Source: Chloroflexota bacterium
GTDB lineage: Bacteria; Chloroflexota; Dehalococcoidia; JACPPY01
Assembly (NCBI GenBank): GCA_016190755.1
Contig: JACPPY010000083.1
Span: forward strand, 1-32,993
Length of the DNA: 32,993 nucleotides
Direction of reading: 5' to 3'
In this document: one piece after another, positions 9,167-31,661 of the stretch
Numbering within the stretch: position 1 is the first letter of the stretch
Layout of the letters: every line of letters starts with the position of its first letter
Notes under the pieces: model-generated
Told to the model about the DNA's origin: nothing
Seen by the model: only the letters and a program-made list of their open reading frames with translations
Database searches by the model: none
Program-made: the position numbers and the translations under genes

Positions 9167-9213
9167 CCCTGAATTATTTAAAGTCTTTGGTTTTCTTACC
9201 GCCTTTGCCGGTG

Positions 9214-9705: not shown

Positions 9706-9729
9706 GACATGTGAGATACGAAACGTCAG

Positions 9730-10008: not shown

Positions 10009-10171
10009 TATTGTCACCTCCTCTTACTTTCCATTCTAACACCATGTATTGGCTGCCCGACTTCATGTGCGTGTTATTGCTCGGAGCAAGGAAAGGAGGC
10101 ATCAAGCAATATCTGTTTGGCTCCCGAGTACTATCGCAGCTATCAACAGACCTGTCGCACCCGAGGTTCCT

Positions 10172-11035
10172 CTAGCTGGTCACGTCGCGCTTCCGAAACA
10201 GGTAGAAAGCCGCTATCAAGAAGGCCAGACTGTAGAGCGACAGGACGATTGCCGCGTGCCAGACTCCGGGGGTGGAGATATCAAAACCACCTCCACCGAA
10301 CCCGCCGCCGACACGGGAAGGGAGACTGTTTAGCTGCGCAATCACCCTGACATTGGCCGCCAGAAGGTAGTTTGGCACATCAGCCACCCATCCGCCGGCG
10401 AGCCTCATGAGAGTAGTAATAATCGACTCCAGAAATAACACCCCGATACCGAGAGCAATACCCGAAGTAGCCGAACGCCCGACCACTGCGAATAGGAACC
10501 CCAGTAGAACATAAGGCATGATAATGAACAGTGTACGCCAGAACTGGAGGAACTGGTCACGTATATATGCTGAGGTCATAAAGCTAAAGTCGAAGGAGTA
10601 GCCACCTAGGGCAGTAGTGATCAGGCTCATGATGAAGCCCGTGGCCACGCCGATGATCGCCCCGACAAAGATTAAGGCCGCTGCTGTCACAAGCTTGGCG
10701 CCAAGAAACCTGGCACGACTTTCGCTGCAGATGAGCATCGTCCTGACGGTTCGCCAGCTATATTCGCTTCCCACCGAACTGCCGATGAGTATCACAGCCA
10801 GCACAGTGCCGAGGGATGACAGCATCGAGAAGGCGAAAGGAATGGCGACAGGAAGCCCGAGCAGGTTCTCCGCGTTTCCCATTCCCCGCCCGTCTCCACC
10901 GAGAGGAGCGACCTTCGACACCGCCAGCAGCAACAAGTACATGATGACCAGTATACCGACCAGGACGAATAGCAGCACCCTCGTCATCTGGCGCTTGAGT
11001 AGTTTGATGAACTCGGCGTCGATGAGCCTAATCAC
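10172..11035 (-). CDS. ABC-2 type transporter permease
   Basis: 287 residues with about six membrane segments (first at 18-39, last at 262-280). The layout is that of ABC-2 permeases: a cytoplasmic N-terminus (LIDAEFIKLLKRQ), a large first extracytoplasmic loop, and the conserved SVGSEYSWRTVRTMLICSES block after the second segment, close to the NatB/BcrB/LinM-like permease group. A Gly-rich stretch (GGGFGGGGF, about 243-251) precedes the last segment. It starts with GTG at 11035 and overlaps the 3' end of the ATPase gene by 8 bases; AGGAGG lies inside the ATPase coding region 8 bases before it. The two probably form one exporter; the cargo is unknown. Confidence 0.88.
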   Translation of the reverse strand: MIRLIDAEFIKLLKRQMTRVLLFVLVGILVIMYLLLLAVSKVAPLGGDGRGMGNAENLLGLPVAIPFAFSMLSSLGTVLAVILIGSSVGSEYSWRTVRTMLICSESRARFLGAKLVTAAALIFVGAIIGVATGFIMSLITTALGGYSFDFSFMTSAYIRDQFLQFWRTLFIIMPYVLLGFLFAVVGRSATSGIALGIGVLFLESIITTLMRLAGGWVADVPNYLLAANVRVIAQLNSLPSRVGGGFGGGGFDISTPGVWHAAIVLSLYSLAFLIAAFYLFRKRDVTS

Positions 11036-11987
11036 CGCTTTTGCCTCCTGTTAACTCGAGGAAAACGTTTTCCAGGCTCAAGCTATGGCTTATCATCTCG
11101 GACGGGAATATCCTCTGTTCCGCCAGCGCTTCGGCTACCTGAGATGACCTGTCCTTGGGCACAGCCACAGCCAGGTAGCTGTCCTCTCTTTTTATTGAGC
11201 CGACCCAGGGCAGCTTTTTGAGGACTTCCTCGGCAGAGGCAATATCTGCCACAGCTATCCGGAGCATATGGCCTCGGTTGAGTAGTTCATCCACCGGAGC
11301 TGAAGTGAGCATCGCACCCTGCTTGATGACCGCAACCCTGTGGCATATTTGCTCCACTTCATGGAGCATATGGCTGCACAGGAAAACGGTACGACCTTCG
11401 CGCGCCAGTGCAGCAATGAGGTCGCGCACCTCCTTCGTACCGGCAGGGTCAAGCCCGTTGGCCGGCTCGTCCAATATTATGAGTTCCGGGTCTCTCAGCA
11501 GGGTTGAAGCAATGCCCAGCCTTTGCTTCATCCCCATGGAGTAGTGTCCGTACGGGTCTGAGGCTCGGTCTTTCAGGTTTACCCGTTCCAGGACTTCGGC
11601 AATCCTGCTCTTGGGAACACCGCCTGTAGCTGTAGCCAGCACTTCCAGGTTGTCCCACCCGGACAGGTAGGGGTAGAAGGCAGGCGCCTCGACAACCGCG
11701 CCAACCCGCCGTAGCACGCTCCACAGGTTATCCCGGAGGTTGAGACCGAATAGCTCAATGTTTCCAGCGGTGGGCTCGATGAGGCCAAGTATCATGCCGA
11801 CGGTAGTGCTCTTCCCTGAGCCGTTCGGCCCAAGGAAGCCGAAGACCTCGCCCCGACGAAGCTCCAGGTTAAGGTCCTTGACGGCTTCCAGTTTCCCAAA
11901 TCGCTTGCTCAACCCGGTAGTCCGAAGGACAATTTCATGGCCCATGTCGGAGCCGGGAACAGGTGCTGTAATAGCCTGAGTCTTCAT
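11028..11987 (-). CDS. ABC transporter ATP-binding protein (BcrA/NatA-like)
   Basis: 319 residues. Walker A is GPNGSGKST (53-61), the signature is the relaxed YSMGMKQR form (149-156) typical of BcrA/CcmA-type ATPases, Walker B is LIILDEP (169-175), D-loop NGLD follows and the switch histidine is H206 in CSHMLHE. The roughly 85-residue C-terminal extension with VAVPKDRSSQVAEALAEQRI is normal for this drug/antibiotic-exporter group. It is the first gene of the pair and powers the ABC-2 permease encoded next. The ATG at 11987 follows CGGAG. Export of a small amphiphile or bacteriocin-like molecule is the usual family role; nothing here identifies the cargo. Confidence 0.93.
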   Translation of the reverse strand: MKTQAITAPVPGSDMGHEIVLRTTGLSKRFGKLEAVKDLNLELRRGEVFGFLGPNGSGKSTTVGMILGLIEPTAGNIELFGLNLRDNLWSVLRRVGAVVEAPAFYPYLSGWDNLEVLATATGGVPKSRIAEVLERVNLKDRASDPYGHYSMGMKQRLGIASTLLRDPELIILDEPANGLDPAGTKEVRDLIAALAREGRTVFLCSHMLHEVEQICHRVAVIKQGAMLTSAPVDELLNRGHMLRIAVADIASAEEVLKKLPWVGSIKREDSYLAVAVPKDRSSQVAEALAEQRIFPSEMISHSLSLENVFLELTGGKSGD

Positions 11988-12073
11988 AGCGTACTCCGTA
12001 TACTTTCGCGCTGCGACCTACTGCAAACATCATACAACGGAAATCTGGGCGGCGTGCTTCATGTTCTTGTGGC

Positions 12074-12655
12074 CTATTCGCGGCCAAGATACTGCAGAGC
12101 CTGCCGCACCCGCTCTTCCAACGAGAGGCCGGAGGCAGGGGGCAGGTGAGAAACAGCCTTCATGGCCTCGGATGCGGAATAGCCCAGGGCAGTCAGAGCG
12201 GCCACTATATCGGAGCTTTCAGGCAATAGCGGCACATGCTCCACAGGCCACTGTTTTTCTACCTTGCCTTTGAGCTCCAGTATGATACGGCCGGCGGTCT
12301 TTTTGCCTATGCCCGACACAGTAGTGAGCACGTCAGGGTTGCTGCTGGCTATGGCCAGCGCCACCTGCTCTGGGCTGAGAGCGGACAGGATAGACAGGGC
12401 TAGTTTCGGTCCAACCCCGGAGACTGTTATTAGCGTTTCGAACAGGCCAAGCTCCTCGGCGGTGGCAAATCCGTATAAGGCGATGACGTCTTCACGCAGG
12501 TGGAGATGTGTATGCAAATCCACTGAGCTGCCAACGGCACCGAGGTTGTCGAGCACCGGCCCTGGGGCGAAAACCTTGAGCGCAAAGCCACCGACGCGTA
12601 CCGCAGCCCATCCAGGCCCGCAGCCTTCGAGCGTGCCATGAATAGCCGATATCAT
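12074..12655 (-). CDS. ruvA: Holliday junction branch migration protein RuvA
   Basis: 193 residues, the usual length. RuvA tetramers bind four-way DNA junctions and load the RuvB motor for branch migration. An N-terminal OB domain (MISAIHGTLEG ... LREDVIALYGF) is followed by two helix-hairpin-helix motifs, TVSGVGPKLALSILS and TVSGIGKKTAGRIILELK, and a C-terminal domain ending SLEERVRQALQYLGRE that contacts RuvB. The ATG overlaps the ruvC stop by 4 bases (ATGA) with GGAGGAAG ahead, so it is translated in step with ruvC. ruvB is not in the window; the gene order continues with ABC exporter genes instead. Confidence 0.97.
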   Translation of the reverse strand: MISAIHGTLEGCGPGWAAVRVGGFALKVFAPGPVLDNLGAVGSSVDLHTHLHLREDVIALYGFATAEELGLFETLITVSGVGPKLALSILSALSPEQVALAIASSNPDVLTTVSGIGKKTAGRIILELKGKVEKQWPVEHVPLLPESSDIVAALTALGYSASEAMKAVSHLPPASGLSLEERVRQALQYLGRE

Positions 12656-13149
12656 TGGTCTTCCTCCAGGAGTCTAGATAGTTGTGTTTCCTGGAGATGG
12701 CAGAGCGCCAGCGCCAGGGCATCTGCTGCATCGTCGGGTTGCGGCGCCTCCGGCAATCCCAGCCTCAGGCGCACTACCTCCTGGATTTGCTGCTTGCCAC
12801 TGCCACCGTACGAGGATACACGCTGCTTTACCTGAGCTGGACTATACCTGAAGACAGGAATGCCCTTCTGTGCTGCGGCAAGTATGGCTATAGCCTGCGC
12901 CCGGCCTATGGACAGGGCGGCACGGACATTATCAGACACGAACGGTTCCTCTACGGCTACCTCATCAGGTTTGGCGCGTGCGATGACCTGAATTAATTGT
13001 TGGTACAGCATGGCCAGCCGCTCTTCGATATCCGAGGTTGCCCGGCATGTAAGGACGCCGCACTCTATCATCTTGGCGGTATCGGCATCTTCCTCCACGA
13101 CACCATATCCCATCTTCACTGTGCCCGGGTCTATACCAAGTATGCGCAA
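12652..13149 (-). CDS. ruvC: Crossover junction endodeoxyribonuclease RuvC
   Basis: 165 residues. RuvC is the dimeric resolvase that nicks Holliday junctions symmetrically. The four acidic metal ligands are visible: D7 in ILGIDPGT, E67 in VAVEEPFV, and D140 and D143 in PDDAADALALA. The start is a TTG at 13149, required to give the family N-terminus MRILGIDPG; GAGGAG lies 7 bases upstream and no ATG is available. It overlaps ruvA by 4 bases and follows yebC on the same strand after 178 bases, the common yebC-ruvC-ruvA arrangement. Confidence 0.97.
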   Translation of the reverse strand: MRILGIDPGTVKMGYGVVEEDADTAKMIECGVLTCRATSDIEERLAMLYQQLIQVIARAKPDEVAVEEPFVSDNVRAALSIGRAQAIAILAAAQKGIPVFRYSPAQVKQRVSSYGGSGKQQIQEVVRLRLGLPEAPQPDDAADALALALCHLQETQLSRLLEEDQ

Positions 13150-13327
13150 AAAACGTCTCCTCGTGCCCGGCGGTCTTCAGCCTGAACCAGGGAGAATAAT
13201 AGCACGGCGGGGCTGTATTGAGAAACATTGCCTGAGCAACCCATGAAAATAAGGTGAGGAACAGCAGGGGAAAACACTACTCTGCTTAATACGTGGGATA
13301 TGTACAAGCAGCGCTGTGACGCGGCAG

Positions 13328-14089
13328 CTATGCCTTTCCGGAATGCATCTGCTCTAGCACGGCGTCGGAGAAATCGGCGTTGGAATAGACCTGCTGCACA
13401 TCGTCCAGTTCTTCGAGCCGTTCGAGTAGCTTCAATGTCTTTAGAGCAGCCTCATCCTCGAGGTTGACCACTGTCTTGGGGATCATGACCACTTCGGCGG
13501 AGGATACCTTGATGTTCTTCTGCTCCAGTGACTTGCGCACGGCCTCGAGGTCCTTGGGCCTGGTCTGTATTTCGACGTAGTTCTTATCCGTCTTGACATC
13601 TTCCGCTCCGGCGTCTATGGCCATAAGAGCGAGTTCATCCGCGTCTATGCCGTCCGGTTGAATAGTGATGACGCCATGGTTCTCGAACATCCAGGAGACT
13701 GCGCCGCTTTCAGCCATGTTGCCACCGCCGCGCACGAAGGCATTGCGCACCTCTCCGATAGTCCTGTTGCGGTTATCGCTTACTGCCTGGACCATGATAG
13801 CGACGCCATTCGGACCGTAACCTTCGACAACAAACTCCTGGAGAGCGGCGCCTTCACCTGCTCCCGAGGCGCGCTTAATGGCACGGTCTATGTTGTCCAG
13901 GGGCATATTGCTGTCCCTGGCTTTCTGTATGGCGAGGCGCAATCTGGCGTTCCCCTCAGGGTTTGGGCCGCCGCCTTGCTTGACAGCGATGATGATCTCG
14001 CGGGCAAGCCTGGTGAAAAGCTGTCCGCGCTTAGCGTCAGCTACACCTTTTGAACGTTTTATCTGTGCCCACTTCGAGTGACCTGACAT
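13328..14089 (-). CDS. yebC: YebC/PmpR-family protein
   Basis: 253 residues, the normal length. The N-terminus MSGHSKWAQIKRSKGVADAKRGQLFTRL and the block EGYGPNGVAIMVQAVSDNRNRTIGEVRNAF are diagnostic. Members are cytoplasmic; some were described as DNA-binding regulators (PmpR), while more recent work links the family to ribosome function at difficult peptide bonds. It is the first gene of the yebC-ruvC-ruvA group and is read from the minus-strand promoter at 14162-14190. The ribosome binding site is weak. The 178 bases between it and ruvC hold no gene. Confidence 0.96.
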   Translation of the reverse strand: MSGHSKWAQIKRSKGVADAKRGQLFTRLAREIIIAVKQGGGPNPEGNARLRLAIQKARDSNMPLDNIDRAIKRASGAGEGAALQEFVVEGYGPNGVAIMVQAVSDNRNRTIGEVRNAFVRGGGNMAESGAVSWMFENHGVITIQPDGIDADELALMAIDAGAEDVKTDKNYVEIQTRPKDLEAVRKSLEQKNIKVSSAEVVMIPKTVVNLEDEAALKTLKLLERLEELDDVQQVYSNADFSDAVLEQMHSGKA

Positions 14090-14161
14090 ATTCTGCCCGC
14101 AATCTCCGTACGGCTTTATGATCGTACGAAACGGCCTCGCCTCCGTCGCGAATTTAGCATG

Positions 14162-14190
14162 ATTCTAGCACTTGGTTGCAGGGGGGTCAA
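14162..14190 (-). promoter_or_regulatory. Sigma-70-type promoter for yebC
   Basis: Read on the minus strand: TTGACC (14190-14185), 17-base spacer, TAGAAT (14167-14162). Transcription would start near 14155 and enter yebC about 65 bases later. It is back to back with the ribF promoter, with 14 bases between the two -35 boxes. Confidence 0.65.
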
Positions 14191-14204
14191 TCAGTGCAAT
14201 CTAT

Positions 14205-14233
14205 TTGACGCTCATATGTGCTTGTGATAGCAT
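14205..14233 (+). promoter_or_regulatory. Sigma-70-type promoter for ribF leader
   Basis: TTGACG (14205-14210), 17-base spacer, TAGCAT (14228-14233). Transcription would start near 14240, directly before the hairpin series at 14243-14284. Confidence 0.5.
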
Positions 14234-14242
14234 TCTGCCACC

Positions 14243-14284
14243 GGGAAAGTCCTTTCCAGGGGGTCGAAAGGCCCCTTTTGTTGT
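14243..14284 (+). terminator. Attenuator-like leader: intrinsic terminator with alternative pairing
   Basis: GGGGTC (14260-14265), GAAA tetraloop, GGCCCC (14270-14275), then TTTTGTTGT: a textbook intrinsic terminator. Just upstream GGAAAG can pair with CTTTCC, while CCTTTC (14251-14256) can pair with GAAAGG (14266-14271), which would break the terminator. These mutually exclusive helices sit between the predicted ribF transcription start and the ribF coding region, so attenuation is plausible. It does not resemble the FMN riboswitch. Confidence 0.55.
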
Positions 14285-14346
14285 ATTATTGATAATCGTT
14301 ATTTGTTAATCTGAGGCCACACACGAATACATCCTTAGGTCAATTC

Positions 14347-15264
14347 CTGAAGGGTCTTGCCCCTGAGGGCGACACACTGATAACCTTCGGCGTTTTCGAC
14401 GGGGTCCACCGTGGTCATCAGTTCCTCATCGAAACACTGAAGAACAGGGCCGCCGAACGCGGCCTGCTGAGTGTGGTCGTGACTTTTGCTCGCCATCCCC
14501 AGGAGGTGCTTGCCCCGCAGACCAGATTGCCCTGGTTGACCAATATTGAGAAGAAGCTCCAATTGATCCGCTGCCTGGGAGTGAACATGGTGACGGTGTT
14601 CCCTTTTGACTCGAGCGTGGCGGCGCTGAGCGCCAGGGAATTCCTGAAGATCACTCAGGAGAACCTGCGCATGAAGGGCCTGATAATCGGGCCTGACTTC
14701 GCCCTGGGCAGAGGACGGGAGGGCGACTTTGACGCCTTGTGTTCTCTGGGCCGGGAAATGGGCTTTACCGTTGAGAAGGTGCCGCCGCTGGTGCTGGATG
14801 GCATGGTCGTCAGCAGCACCACAGTCCGGAAAGCCATAGCCCTGGGGGATGTCAGGTTGTTCCAGAAACTGGTGGGCCGCTACTACGCCTTGAACGGTGA
14901 GGTCATACGAGGCGCCGAACGCGGTAGACACCTCGGCTTCCCGACTGCCAACCTGGCACTGCCTCCGGAGCGGGCAACACCGGCAAACGGCGTATACGCC
15001 AGTTGGGCTTACATCCATGGCGAGCGCTGTGCAGCAGCAACGAACATAGGTGTGCGCCCTACTTTCGATAATGGGCAGCGCCTCGCCGAGGTCTATATAC
15101 TGGACTTCGAAGGCGACATATACGGCCGCGAGTTGTGCGTCGAGCTTGTGGAAAAGCTGCGGGATGAGCTGCGTTTTTCAAGCGTGGATGAGCTCAAAGA
15201 GCAAATGAAACTGGATGTGTTGAAGACGAAGGAGTTGCTGGTGGCGGAGGCAAGAGCGAAATAA
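14347..15264 (+). CDS. ribF: Bifunctional riboflavin kinase/FAD synthetase RibF
   Basis: Converts riboflavin to FMN and FMN to FAD. The N-terminal nucleotidyltransferase motif TFGVFDGVHRGHQ is encoded at 14383-14421, then VTFARHPQEVL, IIGPDFALGRGREGD and SSTTVRKAI. The C-terminal kinase domain has GRHLGFPTANL and NGVYASW, with NIGVRPTF. The start is a problem: between the in-frame stop TAA (14293-14295) and the first GTG (14473, inside the domain) there is no ATG, GTG or TTG. CTG codons at 14311, 14347 and 14377 are candidates; 14347 gives 305 residues, the usual size, and AGGT precedes it, while 14377 has GAGGG at good spacing. A base error is also possible. The stop overlaps the tyrS start (TAATG). 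Confidence 0.9.
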   Translation: MKGLAPEGDTLITFGVFDGVHRGHQFLIETLKNRAAERGLLSVVVTFARHPQEVLAPQTRLPWLTNIEKKLQLIRCLGVNMVTVFPFDSSVAALSAREFLKITQENLRMKGLIIGPDFALGRGREGDFDALCSLGREMGFTVEKVPPLVLDGMVVSSTTVRKAIALGDVRLFQKLVGRYYALNGEVIRGAERGRHLGFPTANLALPPERATPANGVYASWAYIHGERCAAATNIGVRPTFDNGQRLAEVYILDFEGDIYGRELCVELVEKLRDELRFSSVDELKEQMKLDVLKTKELLVAEARAK

Positions 15265-22908: not shown

Positions 22909-25200
22909 ATGAAATCGCTATCGGACCTTTCGCTACAGAAAAGGGTCAACCTGCTGGTTGCCGTCAGCATGGTCGTCGGGCTCGGGTTGTTCTCATGGCT
23001 GGGGGTTCAATCGCTTAACGAAAGCACGGCGCGCGCCTTAGACGAGCGTTTGACCGTGGCGCGCATCGTGGCCAGCCACATGGATGAGACGCTCGATCAT
23101 GTTCTGGTCCACGTGGGCGAGGCAGCTCCCGGTATTTCCTCCGATGGTTTCGAACTGAGGGCGAAGGCACTGTCGGCCACATTGATGCAACTGGGCATTT
23201 CCATCGAGGGCATATACCTGTTCGATGGTGAAGGCAAAGTGCAAAGAACAGCGCCGCCTCTGGCCGGGACTTCCAACCCCAGCTTTTCGGGCCAGGCAGA
23301 TATACGTGACCTCCTGAACAAGGGAGTGCCTGCTATTTCGCCCCTGGTAAGCGCGCCGCTTACTGGAACGCCGGTGGCTTTCGCCGTAGTTCCGATACTG
23401 GGAGATGATGGCAAGGCAGTCTCCGCGTTAGGGGTCGCCATGGATGTCAACGGATCAGGTATTAGTGGATTCATCAAGCCGATAACTCTTGACAACACTG
23501 GATATACAGAAATCGTGGATACACACGGGATTGTGCTGGCAAGAACGACCCCTGGGCGTCCGCCTGACCCATTCGAGAGGAGCGACCATCCCGGACGTTT
23601 TGCACAGCTAATGGTGGAGGGTAAAGCTACGGTCCGCACGTGCCACAGGTGCCATGGTCCTGAGGACCAGCCCCAGAGACGGCGCGACGTACTGGCCTTC
23701 GCTCCCCTGTCTGTGGCGCCTTGGGGCGTTGCCATAAGACAGTCGGAGGAAGAGACTTTTGCCATCACACAGCAGTTGAAAAGGCGGCTGCTGATACTGG
23801 GCGCCATGTCTGTCGTCACGGTGTTTCTGATGGTGTGGATAGTCACTCAGGGCGTGGTGAGGCCGATCAAGATGCTTACAGCGGCTTCTGCCCGTGTGGC
23901 TGCGGGAGATTTCAGCGCTGTCGTTCCGCTGCGTCGCAAAGACGAAATAGGGAAGCTCAGCACAGCGTTCGCGGCCATGACTCGTGACCTTACGCAGGCA
24001 AGGGACGAAATCTGGACACGAAACCAGGAACTCATTGCACTCAACTCAATCGCTGCGACAGTCAGCCAGACGCTCAGACTGGAAGACGTGCTGGAGAAAG
24101 CGCTGCAAAAAGTGCTCGCGGTAGTACGAGCGGAAGCCGGATGCGTGTTTCTCCGCCGCCATCAGAGCAATGCGCTCACCCTGGTGAGTCGCATGGGGCC
24201 CTCGAAGCTGTTTCTCTGTGCATACGCCGAGTCAGTTGACTCTACCTGTGCCTGCCACCAGGTATTGCGCCTGGGTAGCACACTCGTTGTGAACGACGTT
24301 TCGCAATGCCCTGCTCTATCAGAAGCGCTTGCGACTGGAGATACCATATCTTGCTTTGTCTGCGTTCCGCTTCAGTCCAAAGACAAGACATTGGGGATTA
24401 TGAACCTGGCATGTTCGCGAGACTGGTGCATCACAGAGAGCGACTTAAGGCTTCTTCAATCTATCGGGAGACACGTTGGCTTGGCTGTGGAGAACTCATT
24501 GCTATTTGAGGAAACCAGGCGCGAGGAAGACCTGAGGGGCCAATTGCTTACTGCCGTCATAACCGCGCAAGAAGATGAACGCAGGCGCATCTCGCGCGAC
24601 CTCCACGATGGTCTTGCCCAGACGCTGACCGGTCTAATCATGAATATTGAGTCCGCCGAGAACCTGAGCACGCAGGAAAACTCTGGCCTTCACAGCAAGC
24701 TATCCGCTGTCCATAAGATAGCGGCGAACGCACTGGAAGACCTGCGCAAAATGATGAGAGGCCTCAGACCCACTGCGCTTGATGACCTGGGCCTGGTGGC
24801 TGCCATACAGTCCTACGCCGAGACTCATCTCGAGTCAGCAGGAATACACGTTGACTTCGCGACCGACGGACAACCCAAACGCCTGCCGCCCGCAGTCGAA
24901 ACAGCCCTGTTCCGGATTACTCAGGAAGCGATCAACAACATCACTAAGCACGCGCGAGCCAGGAACGTCAAGATTTCGTTGGCTACGGATAATGGCATGG
25001 TGAGGCTGACGGTCGAGGATGACGGCCATGGCTTTGATGTGAGGACATTGTCCGCCTACAATGGAACGCAATCACTGGGGCTCCTCGGCATGCGAGAACG
25101 GGCCACTCTTCTTTCTGGTACCTTCAAGGTCAGGTCAATTCCGGGCCAGGGAACATGTATCACGGTGGGGATACCGATATCAGACAAACAGAATGGATGA
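22909..25200 (+). CDS. NarX-like sensor histidine kinase with extracytoplasmic haem-c motif
   Basis: 763 residues. TM1 is about 13-33 and TM2 about 293-313. Between them lies a large Cache-like sensor domain with NTGYTEIVDTHGIVLARTTPG and then CHRCH (245-249), a CxxCH covalent haem-c site followed by the closing strand APLSVAPWGVAIRQ. A HAMP domain (about 314-366) and a GAF domain (about 375-535) follow; the GAF holds several cysteines (C437, C447, C449, C467, C482, C485) and H450. The kinase core is HisKA_3 with H566 in SRDLHDGLAQ and a HATPase domain with ITQEAINNITKHA and DDGHGFD. The gene is 14 bases before its NarL-type regulator. It probably senses redox state or a haem-binding gas or anion outside the membrane. 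Confidence 0.9.
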   Translation: MKSLSDLSLQKRVNLLVAVSMVVGLGLFSWLGVQSLNESTARALDERLTVARIVASHMDETLDHVLVHVGEAAPGISSDGFELRAKALSATLMQLGISIEGIYLFDGEGKVQRTAPPLAGTSNPSFSGQADIRDLLNKGVPAISPLVSAPLTGTPVAFAVVPILGDDGKAVSALGVAMDVNGSGISGFIKPITLDNTGYTEIVDTHGIVLARTTPGRPPDPFERSDHPGRFAQLMVEGKATVRTCHRCHGPEDQPQRRRDVLAFAPLSVAPWGVAIRQSEEETFAITQQLKRRLLILGAMSVVTVFLMVWIVTQGVVRPIKMLTAASARVAAGDFSAVVPLRRKDEIGKLSTAFAAMTRDLTQARDEIWTRNQELIALNSIAATVSQTLRLEDVLEKALQKVLAVVRAEAGCVFLRRHQSNALTLVSRMGPSKLFLCAYAESVDSTCACHQVLRLGSTLVVNDVSQCPALSEALATGDTISCFVCVPLQSKDKTLGIMNLACSRDWCITESDLRLLQSIGRHVGLAVENSLLFEETRREEDLRGQLLTAVITAQEDERRRISRDLHDGLAQTLTGLIMNIESAENLSTQENSGLHSKLSAVHKIAANALEDLRKMMRGLRPTALDDLGLVAAIQSYAETHLESAGIHVDFATDGQPKRLPPAVETALFRITQEAINNITKHARARNVKISLATDNGMVRLTVEDDGHGFDVRTLSAYNGTQSLGLLGMRERATLLSGTFKVRSIPGQGTCITVGIPISDKQNG

Positions 25201-25214
25201 CGAGGAGATGTAGT

Positions 25215-25877
25215 ATGCAAAAAAAGATTCGAGTTCTCATAGCTGACGACCATGCCATCATAAGGGATGGACTCCGGGCGATACTGGAGACTCAACCTGA
25301 TATCGAGGTCGTGGCGGAGGCTACCGAAGGACAAGAGGCGGTGGAAAAGACCGAACGGTTCAAACCCGACATAGTCATCATGGATGTGACAATGCCGGGA
25401 GTGAATGGACTGGAGGCCACGCGACTCATCAAGAGTGAAAACCCGGACGTGAAAATACTTGCCTTGACCATGCACGATAACCACCAGTACTTTTTCCAGA
25501 TGCTGCACGCCGGCGCCTCGGGTTACTTTATCAAAGGCGGCTCATCTGCGGAACTGGTATCGGCTATTAAGACGGTGTATCAGGGAGAGGTTTTCCTTTA
25601 CCCTTCGATGGCGAAGAAACTCCTTTCGGACTACGTCAAGAAGCTCCGGACGGGTACAGACAGGGACAGCACTGAACGACTCACCGACAGGGAGAGGGAG
25701 ATATTGAAGCTCGTCGCCGAAGGGCGCACAAACCAGGAAATAGCCGACATACTGGTGGTCAGCGTAAACACGGTGCAAACGCACCGGAGCCACGTTATGG
25801 CCAAGCTGGGCCTTCACAGCCGGACGGAGCTGGTGAAGTTCGCGATCAAGCAGGGTATCGTTGCGCTGGACAAATAA
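25215..25877 (+). CDS. NarL/FixJ-type response regulator
   Basis: 220 residues. Receiver domain with the acidic pair D11-D12, phospho-acceptor D57 in IVIMDVTMPG and a conserved lysine in GYFIKGGS. The C-terminal LuxR-type HTH (about 150-215) has LTDREREILKLVAEGRTNQEIA and SVNTVQTHRSHVMAKLGLHSRTEL. The frame is open to 25155, but GAGGAG before the ATG at 25215 and the MQKKIRVLIADDH N-terminus decide the start. It is the evident partner of the kinase just upstream and should activate or repress genes in response to it; the operon starting at 26078 is the nearest candidate target. Confidence 0.94.
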   Translation: MQKKIRVLIADDHAIIRDGLRAILETQPDIEVVAEATEGQEAVEKTERFKPDIVIMDVTMPGVNGLEATRLIKSENPDVKILALTMHDNHQYFFQMLHAGASGYFIKGGSSAELVSAIKTVYQGEVFLYPSMAKKLLSDYVKKLRTGTDRDSTERLTDREREILKLVAEGRTNQEIADILVVSVNTVQTHRSHVMAKLGLHSRTELVKFAIKQGIVALDK

Positions 25878-26007
25878 GATACCTGGAACGCATTATGGCC
25901 GCATACTCAGAATAATGTACTGACATACACAGGATCAGCACCCGGCGGCCCATTCCTATTGAGTACCTCTCGGATCACCTGTACCACAAGCCTGAAATAA
26001 GTTGTTT

Positions 26008-26021
26008 TGTGGATAGCCACA
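26008..26021. promoter_or_regulatory. Short palindrome upstream of the redox operon
   Basis: TGTGG-ATAG-CCACA has perfect 5-base arms and lies about 56 bases before the ATG at 26078, in the only sizeable gap between the two-component genes and the operon. It could be an operator for the NarL-type regulator. It is short enough to arise by chance. Confidence 0.3.
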
Positions 26022-26077
26022 CCTGGACTCCCCAGTTATGCTTATTACAGTAGCTATCCCAACATGGGAGGTGCGGT

Positions 26078-26827
26078 ATGGCAGGAAGGCTGAGAGCGCT
26101 CGTCGCTTCGGAACCGACTCAGGTAAGACATCTTCTTGTCGATGCTCTTGAGCGAGAGCCGGGGGTGGTTGTCGTCGGACAGGCTGACAGCGCTGTGAAG
26201 GCAGTAGGTCTGGCGCGCAGCCTGAGACCCGAGGTGGTGCTGGTTGATTTTCAGTTACCCCACCGCATCGGCCTTGATGCTGTTCCTCTTACCCGGACAA
26301 GCGGGTTGGACGCAGCGATGGACATATCGCGCGAGCTAGGAAAGACGAAGGTATTGTTGGTTACGAATGCCGGGCTCCCAGTCCAACAAGAGAGTGTCCT
26401 GGGAAAGGAAGTCGAGGCATTCCTGTATACGCAGACAGCCGCTGCCAGCCAGCCTGTAGACATACGGAAGCTGTTTGATGGAGGTGTCGTGGCTGACGGG
26501 CTGGTGTTCGCCAAGCTTGGTACAAGGGAGCGGATATCGGACTCAAACCGGATCATCGAGATCAGCGAGAAACTTGTCGCTTTCAGCAGCCTGGTCATAC
26601 TGGGAGGCCTTGGGTTGATGGTGACTCTCTTTCTGGCCAGTGCTGGTGTGTTCTTGGCCGCGGCGGGGGCCGCAGGCCTGCTTCTAGGCGTAACAGCAAG
26701 AGTTGCAGGCGGTTTGGCGCTCAAGCGGCGAAAATCTGCGTTGAAGCCTGAGGTGGTAAAGCCGAAATGGCTAAAGGTGGTGCGAGATGACGACCAGGAA
26801 CGTCCTCAAACAATGCTCGATATTTGA
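26078..26827 (+). CDS. Degenerate receiver domain fused to a membrane hairpin
   Basis: 249 residues. Residues 1-125 have the receiver fold (LRALVASEPTQVRHLLVDALE, VVVVGQADSAVKAV, RPEVVLVDFQLP). D57 at the phosphorylation position is kept, but the N-terminal acidic pair is reduced to S11-E12 and the usual lysine is replaced (AFLYTQT), so normal phosphorylation is doubtful. Two hydrophobic segments (about 169-190 and 191-212) place the C-terminus at the membrane, followed by a basic tail. There is no DNA-binding domain. GGGAGGTG precedes the ATG. It overlaps the next gene by 41 bases in another frame. I read it as a membrane-tethered signalling or scaffold protein; no known family name fits. 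Confidence 0.7.
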   Translation: MAGRLRALVASEPTQVRHLLVDALEREPGVVVVGQADSAVKAVGLARSLRPEVVLVDFQLPHRIGLDAVPLTRTSGLDAAMDISRELGKTKVLLVTNAGLPVQQESVLGKEVEAFLYTQTAAASQPVDIRKLFDGGVVADGLVFAKLGTRERISDSNRIIEISEKLVAFSSLVILGGLGLMVTLFLASAGVFLAAAGAAGLLLGVTARVAGGLALKRRKSALKPEVVKPKWLKVVRDDDQERPQTMLDI

Positions 26828-27248
26828 GGGCTTGAGCGAGATAGAGCTGGAGAAGATCATGGCTATCTCTCGATCAGCCCAATGGGAGGCGGGAGACGCT
26901 ATCTTCAGCGAGATGGGCAGCGCGGCGGAGATGTATGTCCTGGAAAAGGGCAGAGTAGCGCTCCAGATGTCTCTGCCTGCTGGCCAGGTGACCAGGAGGG
27001 TAACGGTGGATGTTGCCGGAAAGAACGAGGCGCTCGGCTGGTCCGCACTGGTCGAGCCCAAGCGGTACACGTTGAGCGCGATATGTCTGGAACCGACCAG
27101 CGTAGTGGCCGTTGATGGCGCTAAGCTCAGGTCGCTTCTCGAGGCAGATCAGGGTCTGGGATATAAGATACTGCGCCAGCTCATAAACGTGGTTGCCTCA
27201 AGATTGGACGAGACCAGGAAGGTATTGTTGAGCGAAAGGTTGGCGTGA
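26787..27248 (+). CDS. Stand-alone cyclic-nucleotide-binding-like domain protein
   Basis: 153 residues. A single CRP-type beta-barrel (ECSIFEGLSEIELEKI-like start, AGDAIFSEMGSAAEMYVLEKGRVAL, then NEALGWSALVEPKRYTLSAICLEPTSVVAVDG) and a C-terminal helix (GYKILRQLINVVASRLDETRKVLL), but no helix-turn-helix. The phosphate-binding cassette keeps the E-x2-G and the A-L but has RYTLSA rather than the RTA pattern, so cyclic nucleotide binding is uncertain. Such stand-alone domains recur beside bacterial redox gene clusters. It begins inside the end of the receiver-like gene, so the two are probably translationally coupled. Confidence 0.85.
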   Translation: MTTRNVLKQCSIFEGLSEIELEKIMAISRSAQWEAGDAIFSEMGSAAEMYVLEKGRVALQMSLPAGQVTRRVTVDVAGKNEALGWSALVEPKRYTLSAICLEPTSVVAVDGAKLRSLLEADQGLGYKILRQLINVVASRLDETRKVLLSERLA

Positions 27249-27317
27249 GTCGACCGTAATGATAGCTGCTCCCCTATCTAAGGGGCCGGGCAATGCTGGA
27301 AGGAGAGAAAAAGGAAA

Positions 27318-28106
27318 ATGACTATGGCGATTGTCTGGGTCGTGGTTGCTGTGGTGGTCGTATTGGCGTGGTTCGTGCTAGGCATTAGGGTTGTGCGCCA
27401 GTGGGAGGGAGGCGTCCTGCTCCGTTTCGGACGGTTTGTAGGAGTCAGGAAGCCTGGACTGAATTTGATAGTCCCGATAGTCGACCGGTTGGTGAATGTT
27501 GACACCCGCGTGATCACCACGATTCTCGAGCCACAAGAGGTAATCACCAAGGACAACGTGACCATCAAAGTAGATGCTGTGGTGTATTTCAAGGTGGTGG
27601 ATCCGGAGAAGGCGGTGATCAGTGTGGCGGACTTCGTTAGCGCCACAACTCAGATAGCGCTGACCACGCTGCGGAGCGTCCTTGGACAATCGGAATTGGA
27701 CGAGGTGCTGGCGCACCGCGACCGGATCAACCAGAGGTTGCGCGAGATAATCGACGGGCAGACTGAGGAACCTTGGGGGGTGCGTGTTACCGTGGCCGAG
27801 GTCAAGGATGTCCTCCTGCCGGAAAACATGCAGCGTGCAATGGCCCGACAGGCTGAAGCCGAACGAGAAAAGCGGGCGAAGATAGTACATGCAGAGGGTG
27901 AACGCCTGGCTGCTACTACCCTTGCCGAAGCCGCAACCATTATGGCCAAAGAGCCGGTGACGTTGCAGTTGCGCTACCTGCAATCTATGGTCGAGATGGC
28001 TGGCGAGCGGAACAGCACCATCATACCCATTCCACTTGATATTGCGGGAGCACTGCGAGGGCTGATGGAGCCTCGCGGAGATGGCAAACAAGTATTGACG
28101 AAGTAG
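27318..28106 (+). CDS. Slipin (SPFH/stomatin-family membrane protein)
   Basis: 262 residues. An N-terminal hydrophobic segment (about 4-24) is followed by the SPFH core: VVRQWEGGVLLRFGRFVGVRKPGLNLIVPIVDR, TRVITTILEPQEVITKDNVTIKVDAVVYFKV and LRSVLGQSELDEVLAHRD. A long charged coiled coil follows (ARQAEAEREKRAKIVHAEGE) and a short C-terminus. Slipins form cage-like oligomers on the cytoplasmic face and organise or protect membrane proteins, often with an NfeD protease partner; no nfeD is adjacent. Here it lies between the signalling genes and the redox subunits, suggesting a role in assembling that complex. GGAAGGAG and AAGGAA precede the ATG. Confidence 0.93.
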   Translation: MTMAIVWVVVAVVVVLAWFVLGIRVVRQWEGGVLLRFGRFVGVRKPGLNLIVPIVDRLVNVDTRVITTILEPQEVITKDNVTIKVDAVVYFKVVDPEKAVISVADFVSATTQIALTTLRSVLGQSELDEVLAHRDRINQRLREIIDGQTEEPWGVRVTVAEVKDVLLPENMQRAMARQAEAEREKRAKIVHAEGERLAATTLAEAATIMAKEPVTLQLRYLQSMVEMAGERNSTIIPIPLDIAGALRGLMEPRGDGKQVLTK

Positions 28107-28168
28107 ACTTGGCTACGGGTCGTTTGAAACTCCATTGATTGTTCAGAGAAACTACACGGGAGGTCAGG

Positions 28169-29020
28169 TTGGAGCTCACCAGGAGGGAACTTCTCAAGTG
28201 GCTTGGCGCCACAGGCATCGCAGTGACAGCTGCGAGTTATATACCTTGGCTGGGCAAGAGCGCGAGCGCTGAGCAAGCCACAACATCCGGCACGCAGACG
28301 ACCCGGTTGCGGCGATGGTCCATGGTAATCGACCTCAAGAGATGTGACGGCTGCATTGGGCTCAAGACGTCGCCGCAATGTACGCAGGCGTGCATCATGG
28401 GTCATCAAGCGCCAGTCGGCATGAAGTGGATCGAGGTATTCGAGTTCAAGCGGGAACTTGGCGGCAGCTATTTCATGCCTGTTCCCTGCCAGCATTGCGA
28501 GAATGCGCCGTGCACCAACGTTTGCCCTGTGGGTGCCACCTTCTCCACTCCAGAAGGGGTAGTATTGGTAGACCAGACGCGCTGCATCGGCTGCCGGCTG
28601 TGTATGGCGGCATGCCCCTACCAGCGTCGCTTCTTCAACTGGGGAGACCCTCAGGTGCCTCCGGAGACTCGATCTGCCAAGTATGACCTGCATCGACAGG
28701 TACCAGCAATCAAGGGTACGGTAATGAAGTGCTCCTTCTGTGTGGACATGGCCCGGAATGGGTCTGTGCCGTTCTGCGTCGCCGGATGCCCGAGGAGCGC
28801 TCTCTGGTTCGGCGACCTCGAAGAGGACATCGCCACAAACTCACGGGACATCGTCAAGCTATCTCGTTTCATGGCCGAAAACGAAGCCTTTCGATTCAAA
28901 GAGGAGCTGGGCACCCATCCACGGGTCTACTATTTGCCTGGCCATGGGCAGAACGTCGGGCGTAACCCGTATCAGACCGGCCTGCTCCCGGCGAGCTGGC
29001 CCTGGGGAGGCAAAAAATGA
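28169..29020 (+). CDS. Tat-exported four-cluster ferredoxin subunit (DmsB/NrfC-like)
   Basis: 283 residues. The N-terminus has a twin-arginine signal, LTRRELLKWLG, then a hydrophobic stretch and a SASA cleavage region, so the protein acts outside the cytoplasmic membrane. Four cysteine sets can bind four [4Fe-4S] clusters: RCDGC-x8-C-x3-C, CQHCENAPCTNVCP, RCIGCRLCMAACP and KCSFC-x11-C-x3-CP. It is the electron-wire subunit of a complex iron-sulfur enzyme and should pass electrons to or from the NrfD-like subunit, whose gene overlaps its stop (ATGA). The TTG at 28169 is chosen over an upstream TTG at 28139 because GGGAGGT precedes it and the Tat motif then sits at the very N-terminus. Confidence 0.92.
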   Translation: MELTRRELLKWLGATGIAVTAASYIPWLGKSASAEQATTSGTQTTRLRRWSMVIDLKRCDGCIGLKTSPQCTQACIMGHQAPVGMKWIEVFEFKRELGGSYFMPVPCQHCENAPCTNVCPVGATFSTPEGVVLVDQTRCIGCRLCMAACPYQRRFFNWGDPQVPPETRSAKYDLHRQVPAIKGTVMKCSFCVDMARNGSVPFCVAGCPRSALWFGDLEEDIATNSRDIVKLSRFMAENEAFRFKEELGTHPRVYYLPGHGQNVGRNPYQTGLLPASWPWGGKK

Positions 29021-30390
29021 ATGAAGCCCTAGAGCGGCTGGAAAGGACTGTCCTTCACCCCCTTACTCATACGACCATGACCTATCGGATAGTCGTGCTG
29101 GCGCTGGCGGCTGTAGCGGGGTGGGGTCTTTATGCCTTTTCCATCCAGATGAGGAACGGGTTGGTGGTGACAGGCATGCGCGACTACATCCTCTGGGGCC
29201 TGTACATCTCCAATTTCGTGTTCTTCATCGGCATAAGCCATGCCGGGACTCTCATCTCGGCGATCCTCAGGGTCACCAAGGCCGAATGGCGTGTCTCGAT
29301 CACGCGTATGGCGGAGTTCATAACTGTGGTGGCGCTAACCGTTGGCGGTGTCTTTCCCATAATTGACATGGGCAGGCCTGACCGCGTGCCGAGCATACTG
29401 TGGTTCGGGCGCTTCCAATCTCCCATAGTCTGGGACATTCTGGCGATAAGCACGTATCTGACTGGCAGTGCCATATACCTGTTCTTGCCCTTGATAGAAG
29501 ACCTGGCGATATGCCGTGACAAGTTGCCCAAAACGCTCTCACCTTGGCGGCGGCTCTTCTATCGTGTGCTGTCGGTCGGCTGGCGAGGGACCGACTCGCA
29601 GAAGAAGTCGCTGTTCACGGCGATGGGCATCATGGCCATACTCATCATCCCTATCGCGGTGTCCGTACATACGGTGGTGTCTTTCATTTTCGCCATGACT
29701 CTCAGGTCAGGCTGGAACAGCACCGTATACGGCATCTACTTCGTGGCTGGCGCCATCTTCTCCGGCATCGCGACCATTATTATAGTGATGGCAATACTGC
29801 GGCGTGCCTTCCACCTCGAAGAGTACATAACATCAAAGCAGTTCGTGTACCTGGGTTACATGCTCGGCGCCTTCGTGTTGATAATGGCCTACTTCAATCT
29901 GCTGGAGTTCCTCGTGCCCGGCTACAAGAACGAGGAAGGCGAAGGCTTCCTGTTGCAGTCGATGCTGGCCGGGAAGTATGCGTGGATGTATTGGGCCTAC
30001 ATAGTAGCTGGCCTGGGGATTCCCGCTTTCATTATACTAAACCCGCGTACCAGGAACGTGAAGGGGTTGGTAATAGCATCCATACTCGTTAACATAGCGA
30101 TGTGGTTGGAGCGGTTCCTGGTCGTGGTCCCAGCCCTTGATGTGCCACTCCTGCCGCGTGAGGCAGTAACTTATGTTCCCACTTGGGTGGAGTGGTCGAT
30201 AATCGCAGGGGCGTTTGCCGAGTTCTCCTTGATAATCGCCGTGTTCGCCAAGTTATTTCCCGTGATTTCCATATGGGAGGTGAAAGAGCAAATGGAGCAG
30301 AAGGAGCACGTCGCGGCTGAAGCCGAAACATCTCCAGCCACCACACATGGTTTCGGGGAACGAGCCAAGACAAGCCCCTTCGGCACCTAA
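29017..30390 (+). CDS. NrfD/ActC-like quinone-interacting membrane subunit
   Basis: 457 residues with about ten membrane segments. Stretches such as ILWGLYISNFVFFIGISHAG, ISAILRVTKAEWR, TRMAEFITVVAL, GGVFPIIDMGRPDR, SPIVWDILAISTYL and SVHTVVSFIFAM closely match the ActC/HybB type of NrfD proteins found in alternative complex III and polysulfide-reductase-like enzymes, which oxidise or reduce membrane quinone. The C-terminal 40 residues are charged and cytoplasmic. It overlaps the ferredoxin gene by 4 bases and is followed after 17 bases by an Ig-like protein gene. No molybdopterin subunit, pentahaem cytochrome or second NrfD copy is present, so it is not a standard alternative complex III. 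Confidence 0.93.
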   Translation: MNEALERLERTVLHPLTHTTMTYRIVVLALAAVAGWGLYAFSIQMRNGLVVTGMRDYILWGLYISNFVFFIGISHAGTLISAILRVTKAEWRVSITRMAEFITVVALTVGGVFPIIDMGRPDRVPSILWFGRFQSPIVWDILAISTYLTGSAIYLFLPLIEDLAICRDKLPKTLSPWRRLFYRVLSVGWRGTDSQKKSLFTAMGIMAILIIPIAVSVHTVVSFIFAMTLRSGWNSTVYGIYFVAGAIFSGIATIIIVMAILRRAFHLEEYITSKQFVYLGYMLGAFVLIMAYFNLLEFLVPGYKNEEGEGFLLQSMLAGKYAWMYWAYIVAGLGIPAFIILNPRTRNVKGLVIASILVNIAMWLERFLVVVPALDVPLLPREAVTYVPTWVEWSIIAGAFAEFSLIIAVFAKLFPVISIWEVKEQMEQKEHVAAEAETSPATTHGFGERAKTSPFGT

Positions 30391-30407
30391 GGCTTGGGTA
30401 GGAGCAC

Positions 30408-30965
30408 ATGATGAGGACGAGATTATTCATCTTGGTGATCGTAGCAGCCCTGCTCGCGGTTGTAGGAAGCGTTGGACTGGCTCTTGCTGACGATGGTGGA
30501 TCATTCAACACGAAGCTTTCCTTGGCGGTGCCCTCCAGTACGCCATTGGGACAATCCGTCCGGTTGGAGGCGAGGCTTCAAGATGGGTCGGGCAATCCGA
30601 TCAAGCAGGGCACGATCGTCTTCTACATCTCCACAGGTTTTCTCTCGGGCACAAGCGGCCTGATGCCCATTGGAAGTGCCGCTACCAATGACCTGGGAGT
30701 CGCCGTGCTGGAACACGAACCACGACAAAATGGGCAGATCGAGGTCGTTGCGCGTTTTCTTGGAGATGCCCGGCATGGCCCGAGTCAGGATGTGGCGAAG
30801 ATATCTATAGTGGGAAACCACCAGTTATACGAGGCGGAAGCGGGCATACATGTTCCATTCGTCGGCAAGTGGATTCTGGTACTGGTGTTGGGCTTCATCT
30901 GGGGTACGTACTTGTTTGTCGTTTCACGCGTCTTGAAGATAGCCACAGCACCGCCTGAAAAGTAA
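30408..30965 (+). CDS. Membrane-anchored Ig-like domain protein
   Basis: 185 residues. An N-terminal signal segment (about 5-27, ending SVGLALA) leads to one Ig-like beta-sandwich (about 35-135; SSTPLGQSVRLEARLQDGSGNPIKQGTIVFY and GVAVLEHEPRQNGQIEVVARFLGD), then a C-terminal membrane helix (WILVLVLGFIWGTYLFVVSRVL, 152-173). The domain should lie outside the membrane, anchored at both ends of the mature chain or at the C-terminus after cleavage. No cofactor motif is visible. Its place between the NrfD-like and cytochrome-like genes suggests a structural subunit of the same complex. AGGAG precedes ATGATG; either ATG may be used. Confidence 0.75.
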   Translation: MMRTRLFILVIVAALLAVVGSVGLALADDGGSFNTKLSLAVPSSTPLGQSVRLEARLQDGSGNPIKQGTIVFYISTGFLSGTSGLMPIGSAATNDLGVAVLEHEPRQNGQIEVVARFLGDARHGPSQDVAKISIVGNHQLYEAEAGIHVPFVGKWILVLVLGFIWGTYLFVVSRVLKIATAPPEK

Positions 30966-30989
30966 GGAATACTCTGGAGGCATTGTGCC

Positions 30990-31661
30990 TTGAAACGATA
31001 TGAACAGCCGAGACCGGTTAACGTAACTCCGATAAAGCCGCCGATTCCGGTGAGATACACGTCTACCGCCAGGGGAAGGCAGTCTGACCGGCGCAATGCG
31101 CTCTTCGCCCTGTTTCTTATAGGGTTCGTGCTCACCGTTTCGACGACGGTCATCACCATGATCATACGCGGGCCTGACACACATGGCAGTATCTGGAATG
31201 GCGTTCTTCCCGGATATAACCGTACGGAACCAATGTATGTAGTATCTGAACCCGGGCCGGCGCAGCTTCCGCCGTTACCTCCCGCGCAAACCCCAACGCC
31301 TCCTGTGCAAACAACAACCCCAGGGCAGACGACAACTCCAGGGCAGACGACAACTCCTGCCCCGAGCACTACTCCTGTTGTCGCCAAGGATGTTTCCTTC
31401 TCGCAGGACGTTCTGCCTATCCTGAAGGCAGGTTGCTCCTGCCATATACAGGCAATTGCCATGAAGGGTGTCGTTGTGGACTCCTACCAGGCCTTGACTA
31501 AGGCGCAGCCGCTCCTGCTGGTCCCTGGGAAACCGGATGACAGCCTGCTTGTAAGTGTGCTGCAAGGCAAACCGACGCAAATGCCCCCTTCAGGGCCGTT
31601 GTCGGAGGAAAAGATCAAGGCCATTAAGGATTGGATATCCCAGGGGGCGAAGAATAACTAG
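30990..31661 (+). CDS. Membrane-anchored cytochrome-c-like protein with CSCH motif
   Basis: 223 residues. One membrane helix (about 34-54), then an extracytoplasmic Pro/Thr/Gln-rich linker (about 88-128) containing a tandem repeat, then a domain of about 90 residues with the plan of planctomycete-type cytochrome c domains: VLPILKAGCSCHIQ, VVVDSYQALTK, PGKPDDSLLVSVLQG, TQMPPSGPLSEEKIKAIKDWISQGA. Met in QMPP is the expected sixth haem ligand. The haem-binding site, normally CxxCH, reads CSCH, one residue short. The start is TTG at 30990 with GGAGG 9 bases ahead. Last gene of the probable operon; it could carry electrons to or from the ferredoxin/NrfD pair if haem is bound. Confidence 0.82.
   Translation: MKRYEQPRPVNVTPIKPPIPVRYTSTARGRQSDRRNALFALFLIGFVLTVSTTVITMIIRGPDTHGSIWNGVLPGYNRTEPMYVVSEPGPAQLPPLPPAQTPTPPVQTTTPGQTTTPGQTTTPAPSTTPVVAKDVSFSQDVLPILKAGCSCHIQAIAMKGVVVDSYQALTKAQPLLLVPGKPDDSLLVSVLQGKPTQMPPSGPLSEEKIKAIKDWISQGAKNN
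31321..31356 (+). repeat. Tandem 18-base repeat in the cytochrome linker
   Basis: Two perfect copies of CAGGGCAGACGACAACTC (31321-31338, 31339-31356) encode the repeated GQTTTP unit of the Thr/Pro linker. The number of copies could vary between strains and change linker length without shifting the frame. Confidence 0.85.

Follow-up and report, generated by a model that had tools for sequence, protein, structure and literature searches.

Alternative complex III (ActABCDEF) carries electrons from quinol to cytochrome c with two NrfD-type subunits (ActC and ActF), a monohaem cytochrome, the pentahaem ActA, and ActB, which combines a molybdopterin-like half with a four-cluster ferredoxin domain (one [3Fe-4S] and three other clusters). 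The menaquinone reductase QrcABCD works in the opposite direction, and D120, S138 and Y150 of its QrcD subunit have been investigated for their part in reducing menaquinone. SirCD of Shewanella and Cbc4 (CbcSTU) of Geobacter, as described in an excerpt of PMC11434368, deliver electrons to cytochromes without a dedicated catalytic subunit. On the sensory side, the sCache_heme domain (DUF3365/Tll0287, PF11845) is a single extracytoplasmic Cache with a CxxCH motif in the loop before its last strand; it is commonly fused to kinases and is reported to be rare or absent in Chloroflexota (PMC12889525).

Here, we analyzed the forward strand of contig JACPPY010000083.1 (32,993 nt, hereafter the window) from Chloroflexota bacterium GCA_016190755.1, a single incomplete metagenome-assembled genome whose overall content was judged from family searches and single stretches. 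Open reading frames and Pfam and NCBIfam profiles place nine genes between positions 22909 and 31661. These genes are a conserved unit, which most likely encodes, by prediction, a compact quinol:cytochrome c oxidoreductase. The redox complex varies an established type; the signalling parts are the unusual element. The features, all on the plus strand except the unstranded gap, are as follows:

22909..25200, plus: sensor histidine kinase, 763 aa, with a double Cache bearing a c-haem motif, then HAMP, GAF, HisKA_3 and HATPase_c (Pfam dCache_1, alignment of 17 homologues, structural model, PDB fold matches)
23641..23655, plus: CHRCH (CxxCH) motif, residues 245-249, in the membrane-proximal Cache module (alignment and secondary structure)
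25155..25877, plus: LuxR/NarL-type response regulator, likely start 25215 (Response_reg and GerE)
25878..26077, no strand: 200-base gap before the RECtm gene, possible promoter
26078..26827, plus: RECtm, a receiver-like domain with two C-terminal membrane helices (Pfam REC, alignment with nine homologues, class-wide search)
26787..27248, plus: stand-alone cNMP-binding-like protein without a DNA-binding domain (Pfam cNMP_binding, alignment)
27318..28106, plus: slipin/stomatin-like (Band 7) membrane protein (PF01145, Band_7, 125.7 bits)
28139..29020, plus: Tat-exported ferredoxin-like subunit of the DsrO/PsrB/ActB-C-terminal type, 16 Cys (Fer4, twin-arginine start)
29017..30390, plus: NrfD-family membrane subunit, ActC/DsrP-like (PF03916, residue comparison)
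30408..30965, plus: Ig-like periplasmic domain with a single C-terminal membrane helix (profile; model pLDDT 88.4)
30990..31661, plus: membrane-anchored PSCyt1-like cytochrome with a conserved helix-end motif, GPDTHGSI (weak PSCyt1 match)
31434..31445, plus: degenerate haem motif C-S-C-H (CxCH), residues 149-152

The first-pass annotation described a two-component pair followed by a tight cluster of six genes. The spacing and the families hold, and the genes downstream of the pair number seven. The RECtm and cNMP-like genes overlap by 41 bases, the ferredoxin and NrfD genes by 4; the remaining gaps are 69 bases (cNMP-like to slipin), 32 (slipin to ferredoxin), 17 (NrfD to Ig) and 24 (Ig to cytochrome). 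Since 25215 is the likelier start of the regulator, its gene need not overlap that of the kinase, and the 200-base gap after it makes a second promoter possible. Searches for 12-, 14-, 10- and 6-8-mers in this gap across 13 loci gave nothing clearly above shuffles, so that it is unproven that the regulator controls its own block. Predicted sigma-70 promoters and terminators likewise did not exceed those in shuffled sequence.

The full gene order recurs in four other Dehalococcoidia loci (L036, L043, L073 and L082), and eight more (L055, L075, L076, L078, L093, L106, L166 and L172) show it slightly altered or truncated by a contig end; in the same-family genome G001 the contig ends within NrfD. 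Because the same order is found in other genomes, the arrangement is not accidental, and the proposal that the genes form a coherent module rather than being scattered is borne out. It is extremely improbable that signalling and redox genes merely adjoin by chance. The 200-base distance between regulator and RECtm and the many relatives in which the core stands beside different kinases would fit such a coincidence, but the full order spans several families and two separate NrfD branches, and the RECtm-cNMP pair adjoins several respiratory operons. The ferredoxin-NrfD-Ig core is distributed much more broadly, in Chloroflexota, Actinomycetota, Bacteroidota and archaea. Among 65 well-flanked loci, the ferredoxin gene lies immediately 5' of NrfD in 61, an Ig gene is present in 48, and a CxxCH protein is encoded no more than three genes away in 47.

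Neither the window block (Pfam) nor any of the 48 Ig-type loci whose flanks were long enough contains a molybdopterin gene, the latter within four genes of the complex. The "missing" catalytic subunit is therefore not a local loss, and a lost or displaced molybdopterin subunit is ruled out, as is a complex iron-sulfur molybdoenzyme of the Psr/Ttr/Dms type, in which such a subunit is encoded with the ferredoxin and NrfD. Nor is the absence exceptional: SirCD and Cbc4 are precedents, each a ferredoxin plus a quinol dehydrogenase with no catalytic subunit of its own, and the window block is like them in gene content. Compared by description, the excerpt of PMC11434368 mentions no Ig subunit, haem kinase, RECtm/cNMP pair or slipin for these two systems.

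The 16 Cys of the ferredoxin suggest four [4Fe-4S] clusters, where ActB has one [3Fe-4S] and three others, and every one of these Cys is invariant across eight homologues. The membrane subunit scores 119.7 bits against PF03916 (cut-off 25.8), and its profile matches to ActC (6f0k_C, 6lod_C, 8k9e_C and 6btm_C) reach 272-300 bits, making ActC the closest solved relative. D117, S135, D140, Y147 and R366 are retained, and the first two do not vary among ten sequences; the equivalent of ActC Asp253 is lost (I226). With most quinone-site residues kept, the subunit is predicted to react with quinone, as the earlier reading had it. A full alternative complex III is ruled out by gene content: the ActC-type subunit and the four-cluster ferredoxin are present and a monohaem-type cytochrome gene accompanies them, whereas ActF, the molybdopterin-like ActB half and ActA are absent from the block and an Ig-like membrane protein takes their place. 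In a quick tree with long branches, the tandem-NrfD sets found in the class separate from the window type. The best NCBIfam matches of the ferredoxin and NrfD are DsrO and DsrP, and the quinone-site Asp and Ser are common to both systems; both scores nevertheless fall below the curated cut-offs (DsrO, 183.8 vs 200; DsrP, 121.2 vs 350), and the block lacks DsrM, DsrK and DsrJ genes, so that DsrMKJOP membership was rejected. Membership in QrcABCD was rejected too, at 127.1 vs 400 bits for QrcC and 65.2 vs 570 for QrcD, and the block has no QrcA or QrcB.

In the mechanism that we propose, NrfD would oxidise menaquinol close to the outer face of the membrane; the four [4Fe-4S] clusters would relay the electrons to a c-type haem in the Ig/cytochrome part, from which they would reach oxidases or other cytochromes. 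The acceptor is likely a c-type cytochrome, either the co-encoded one or another, that feeds the two haem-copper oxidases encoded in the genome. If so, the complex would be a compact substitute for complex III-type enzymes, common among uncultured bacteria and archaea and recognisable by its Ig/cytochrome partner. Electron direction is not readable from the sequence, however: D117, S135 and Y147 of NrfD have the same spacing as D120, S138 and Y150 of QrcD, and QrcABCD runs the other way. The complex might run backwards like QrcABCD, with cytochromes drawing electrons from a donor in the periplasm or outside the cell for the reduction of quinone, which we regard as unlikely. Besides the shared spacing, such a reversal would suit the MtrC-like multihaem genes found in the module at L076, beside it at L175 and elsewhere in the genome; on the other hand, the NrfD is closest to a quinol oxidiser, the genome's oxidases could take electrons from cytochrome c, and at most loci the cytochromes are all of an ordinary type with one to three haems.

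The same multihaem genes bear on an extracellular conduit from quinol through the complex to surface cytochromes, a reading we consider decidedly unlikely. The L076 module includes a decahaem MtrC/MtrF-like gene, L175 has a nine-motif MtrC-like gene that neighbours a kinase of this type and an RECtm/cNMP pair, and contig C54 of the same genome carries an MtrC-like frame of 847 aa; the window block and most full-module loci, though, have no multihaem gene. The partner outside the cell suggested by the first-pass annotation is thus suggested only by MtrC-like genes in the blocks of relatives and one elsewhere in the genome.

Ig protein and cytochrome are fused into a single protein in many relatives. 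A fold search with the Ig model returned generic beta-sandwich matches and no functional lead, and a literature search found no relevant paper on NrfD with slipin or Ig partners. In the window cytochrome, CxCH is one residue short of the CxxCH found in all four homologues examined, L036 included, and the label "cytochrome" is therefore insecure for this copy. It may lack covalent haem, judging from the motif, with the final step made through another cytochrome. Contig C57 of the same genome encodes a paralogous ferredoxin-NrfD-Ig-cytochrome set with three CxxCH motifs. This set and the shortened motif would be expected if the window locus were decaying and non-functional, its role taken over by the paralogue. 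We think this very unlikely, given that every other reading frame is intact, key residues are conserved and the three-base change is a possible assembly or strain variant. The C57 set is accompanied by an ordinary kinase rather than the haem kinase, an observation that counts against the proposed module.

Turning to the sensor, C245, C248 and H249 are invariant in 17 homologues, and the expectation that a CxxCH kinase is consistently attached held. In the model (pLDDT 85.7), CHRCH sits between two strands (241-247 and 258-266) in the second, membrane-proximal Cache module, and the PDB fold matches are tandem-Cache sensors. The kinase is thus a double Cache protein whose second module bears the c-haem motif, and haem binding is predicted from motif and model. 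The loop position of CxxCH is that of sCache_heme, the fold is a double Cache (dCache_1, PF02743) instead of a single one, and no PF11845 match was found in the sensor at E 0.01. With a covalent haem, the kinase would sense redox conditions or gases outside the membrane and signal them to the regulator, which would set transcription of the block. Covalent haem sensing would then include double as well as single Cache domains, in a phylum where the known type is reported to be almost missing, and whether the haem motif was gained twice would become testable.

The RECtm and cNMP-like proteins are a unit of their own, and both lack standard functional residues. In RECtm, the acidic pair is S-E in the window copy and S-E or S-G in most of nine homologues, and no conserved Lys was seen at the end of strand 5 in their alignment; of the receiver residues, the phospho-acceptor Asp (D57) alone is invariant. 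In cyclic nucleotide-binding domains such as that of CRP, the ligand is held by a Glu and an Arg of the phosphate-binding cassette. In the cNMP-like protein, the FGE-type motif reads GWSA, with an invariant Trp (W85) at the Glu position and no conserved Arg among ten homologues. The pair would be a membrane-bound, probably non-canonical control or assembly unit for quinol-oxidising complexes, and the slipin, a putative scaffold, would organise the complex in the membrane. Overall, we find it fairly probable that the block is a respiratory module uniting quinol:cytochrome c oxidoreductase, haem dCache kinase, RECtm/cNMP pair and slipin.

The first-pass annotation was right that signalling proteins are present and too narrow in calling them local. 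RECtm adjoins, or is one gene from, a cNMP-like gene in 14 of 14 class loci with visible flank, and the pair stands at the front of other respiratory operons as well, among them a Rieske/cytochrome b one in this genome. More tentatively, the haem dCache of Chloroflexota could be a second, independently evolved class attached mostly to respiratory operons, while the membrane pseudo-receiver and the ligand-altered cNMP-like protein would be a general control pair for unrelated quinol:cytochrome c oxidoreductases of NrfD and Rieske/cytochrome b types. The presence of RECtm/cNMP beside quinol-oxidising complexes of two unrelated types within the same genomes would then point to an unstudied layer of respiration control.

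Gene calls and family searches bore out the positions and family assignments of the nine genes in the block described by the first-pass annotation; the two-component pair is followed by seven genes, not six, and the last gene reads CxCH, not CxxCH.

22909-31661: block of nine genes, in order a double-Cache kinase with a CxxCH haem motif, a regulator, a receiver-like protein with two C-terminal membrane helices (RECtm), a stand-alone cNMP-binding-like protein (cNMP-like), slipin, a Tat ferredoxin (FeS), NrfD, an Ig-like protein and a cytochrome-like protein
30990-31661: the cytochrome homologue
31434-31445: its CxCH motif

CxxCH is present in 4/4 homologous cytochromes examined, including those of the G011 module and of contig C10 of the window's own genome (G000), and the CxCH may have arisen by decay, by variation between strains or by an error in the assembly. 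The window is contig C63 of a 2.09 Mb metagenome assembly (81% complete, 98 contigs) whose relatives are Chloroflexota, its class probably being Dehalococcoidia, and the whole analysis rests on genes of this one incomplete assembled genome and the sequences of its relatives. The upstream window genes scanned (tRNA synthetase, riboflavin kinase, aminotransferase, transporters, a CheB/CheR-PAS protein) are unrelated to the block, indicating that it is bounded.

We counted the FeS-NrfD-Ig-cytochrome core in 65 loci with sufficient flank, after taking out six known duplicates. The FeS gene lies immediately 5' of NrfD in 61/65, an Ig-like gene follows NrfD in 48/65 and a CxxCH protein is encoded within three genes downstream in 47/65; the loci were picked by similarity to the window NrfD and are mutually related, and the counts are therefore of non-independent events. 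A molybdopterin gene was found within four genes in 4/65 loci and in none of the 48 that bear the Ig gene, and on the NrfD tree the molybdopterin-bearing loci cluster with ActC-type sequences, separate from the Ig type. These counts rule out the alternative, raised in the first-pass annotation, that a molybdopterin subunit is usually adjacent and was simply lost here. In many relatives Ig and cytochrome are a single fused protein, which argues that the two act together, and many of these proteins share a motif at a membrane-helix end, [GS]P[DYEF][TS]Hx[NH][LI]. Hosts of the core include Chloroflexota, Actinomycetota, Bacteroidota, Acidobacteriota and several archaeal MAGs. Two cores are followed by an ethylbenzene-dehydrogenase-gamma-like protein, EB_dh (L069, 12535-14266; L072, 12442-13359), that of L069 also by an HmuY-like protein. 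Five Bacteroidota cores (L114, L117, L119, L121, L133) have cNMP-like genes nearby; no RECtm was seen there.

The ferredoxin starts with a twin-arginine motif, and the 16 Cys that are invariant in the homologue alignment would suffice for four [4Fe-4S] clusters. An NrfD profile search matched ActC of alternative complex III at 272-300 bits and ActF far more weakly; no other NrfD structure, e.g., PsrC, matched at E 0.01. In the alignments with R. marinus ActC, His139, Ser164, Asp169 and Arg395 correspond to D117, S135, D140 and R366 of the window NrfD, and the Asp253 position is occupied by hydrophobic I226. The residue equivalent to D117 is Asp in DsrP and QrcD, and D117/S135/Y147 share the spacing of QrcD D120/S138/Y150. 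Of these three, D120 is only mildly important in Qrc and the other two are essential. Given this correspondence to ActC and QrcD, the complex probably has its quinone site close to the outer face. Kinship to ActC, together with two haem-copper oxidases in the genome, suggests electron flow from quinol to cytochrome. The window complex belongs to the NrfD family, and its most likely function is that of an ActC-based quinol:cytochrome c oxidoreductase. Membership of alternative complex III, DsrMKJOP, Qrc or the molybdoenzymes was rejected on the features tested. In gene content it compares with SirCD and Cbc4, which have no dedicated catalytic subunit (PMC11434368).

The gene-neighbourhood comparison proposed with the first-pass annotation covered NrfD relatives from 60 related genomes plus 80 named contigs; gene order proved conserved, and the full block recurs in other genomes. 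The complete order, from CxxCH kinase to Ig/cytochrome, is found in L036 (G011), L043 (G009; one and the same contig as L077), L082 and L073, the last with one additional dihaem cytochrome. Partial or altered blocks occur in L055 and L075 (the contig begins inside the block, or different genes lie upstream), L166 and L172 (the contig stops at slipin), L078 (without slipin), L093 (no RECtm found), L106 (without RECtm and cNMP) and L076 (RECtm present twice, plus a decahaem gene). The L076 decahaem product (998 aa), inside the module at 3492-15101 alongside both copies, is MtrC/MtrF-like. On the NrfD tree, a quick, short search with some long branches, the window and L036 are basal in a 53-row group; most remaining full-module loci fall in a separate 13-row group. 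The signalling part has therefore either persisted with NrfD lineages that are ~56% identical or been passed between them.

Two parts stand out as most unusual: the double-Cache sensor with its predicted haem, and the RECtm/cNMP pair. C245, C248 and H249 are common to the sensor part of 17 kinase homologues, with shared flanks TCHRCH...RRDVLAFAPL...WGVAIRQSEEE. The structure model (pLDDT 85.7) has two Cache modules, and the haem motif falls between the final strands of the one nearer the membrane; the closest PDB folds are tandem-Cache sensors (rpHK1S-Z16, KinD, PctA and others). Single-Cache haem domains (DUF3365) are the subject of a 2026 preprint, which presents them as the first of the Cache type to carry a covalent cofactor (PMC12889525). 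According to that preprint, those joined to signalling parts have NO-binding properties, and the domains are rarely or never found in Chloroflexota. Their haem motif sits at a comparable place, and the window sensor gave no match to PF11845; the motif may have been acquired twice, in double- and single-Cache domains. In a phylum sample of 301 genomes, 12 had a strong match, and several weaker matches are without CxxCH. Flanks could be read for nine CxxCH kinases that are not part of the module; NrfD or multihaem genes are nearby in six (L176, L210, L211, L216, L217, L220) and not in the other three (L212, L213, L215). On C97 of the window's genome (L197, 4331-8848), a nine-CxxCH, MtrC-domain-like cytochrome neighbours a related double-Cache kinase that has no CxxCH.

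A search of 393 genomes of the class for RECtm gave long matches, of at least 130 bits, at 15 places in 11 genomes. A cNMP-like gene is near RECtm in all 14 places with visible flanks, adjacent or, in L166, one gene off. At three places (G000, G001, G009) the pair is followed by a GltD/NfnB-like flavo-FeS protein, assigned in G001 from position and size only; each of these genomes also carries the NrfD-type locus, and cytochrome b is encoded downstream in two of them (G000 and G001). The G000 locus (L173, C23, 440-10131) begins with RECtm-cNMP and continues with the flavoprotein, cytochrome b, Rieske, dihaem cytochrome c, a kinase and regulators. In L175 the pair has as neighbours an MtrC-like gene with nine CxxCH and a kinase of the haem-motif type. 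By alignment, RECtm keeps the acceptor Asp and lacks the acidic pair and conserved Lys. The cNMP-like protein has Trp at the expected ribose-binding Glu position and no conserved Arg, positions that we take to be equivalent to those of CRP. Its C100, invariant in ten aligned RECtm-linked proteins, may be redox-active. We infer that RECtm and cNMP-like form a non-canonical membrane control or assembly pair.

Elsewhere in the genome, C39 (L176, 7277-16843) encodes a regulator and a receiver as well as the same haem-motif kinase type and a slipin; kinase and slipin both lie ahead of a ten-CxxCH cytochrome, FeS, NrfD and a Psr/Phs-like molybdopterin subunit. A paralogous FeS-NrfD-Ig-cytochrome set on C57, its cytochrome with three CxxCH, is accompanied by an ordinary divergent kinase pair, and C54 has an MtrC-like frame. 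The content of these contigs argues that kinase and slipin are modules common to several respiratory complexes and that candidate partners encoded outside the window exist. C49 has a single cluster (L196, 1-12203) that brings NarG/NarH-like genes together with c-type cytochromes and a cytochrome oxidase set.
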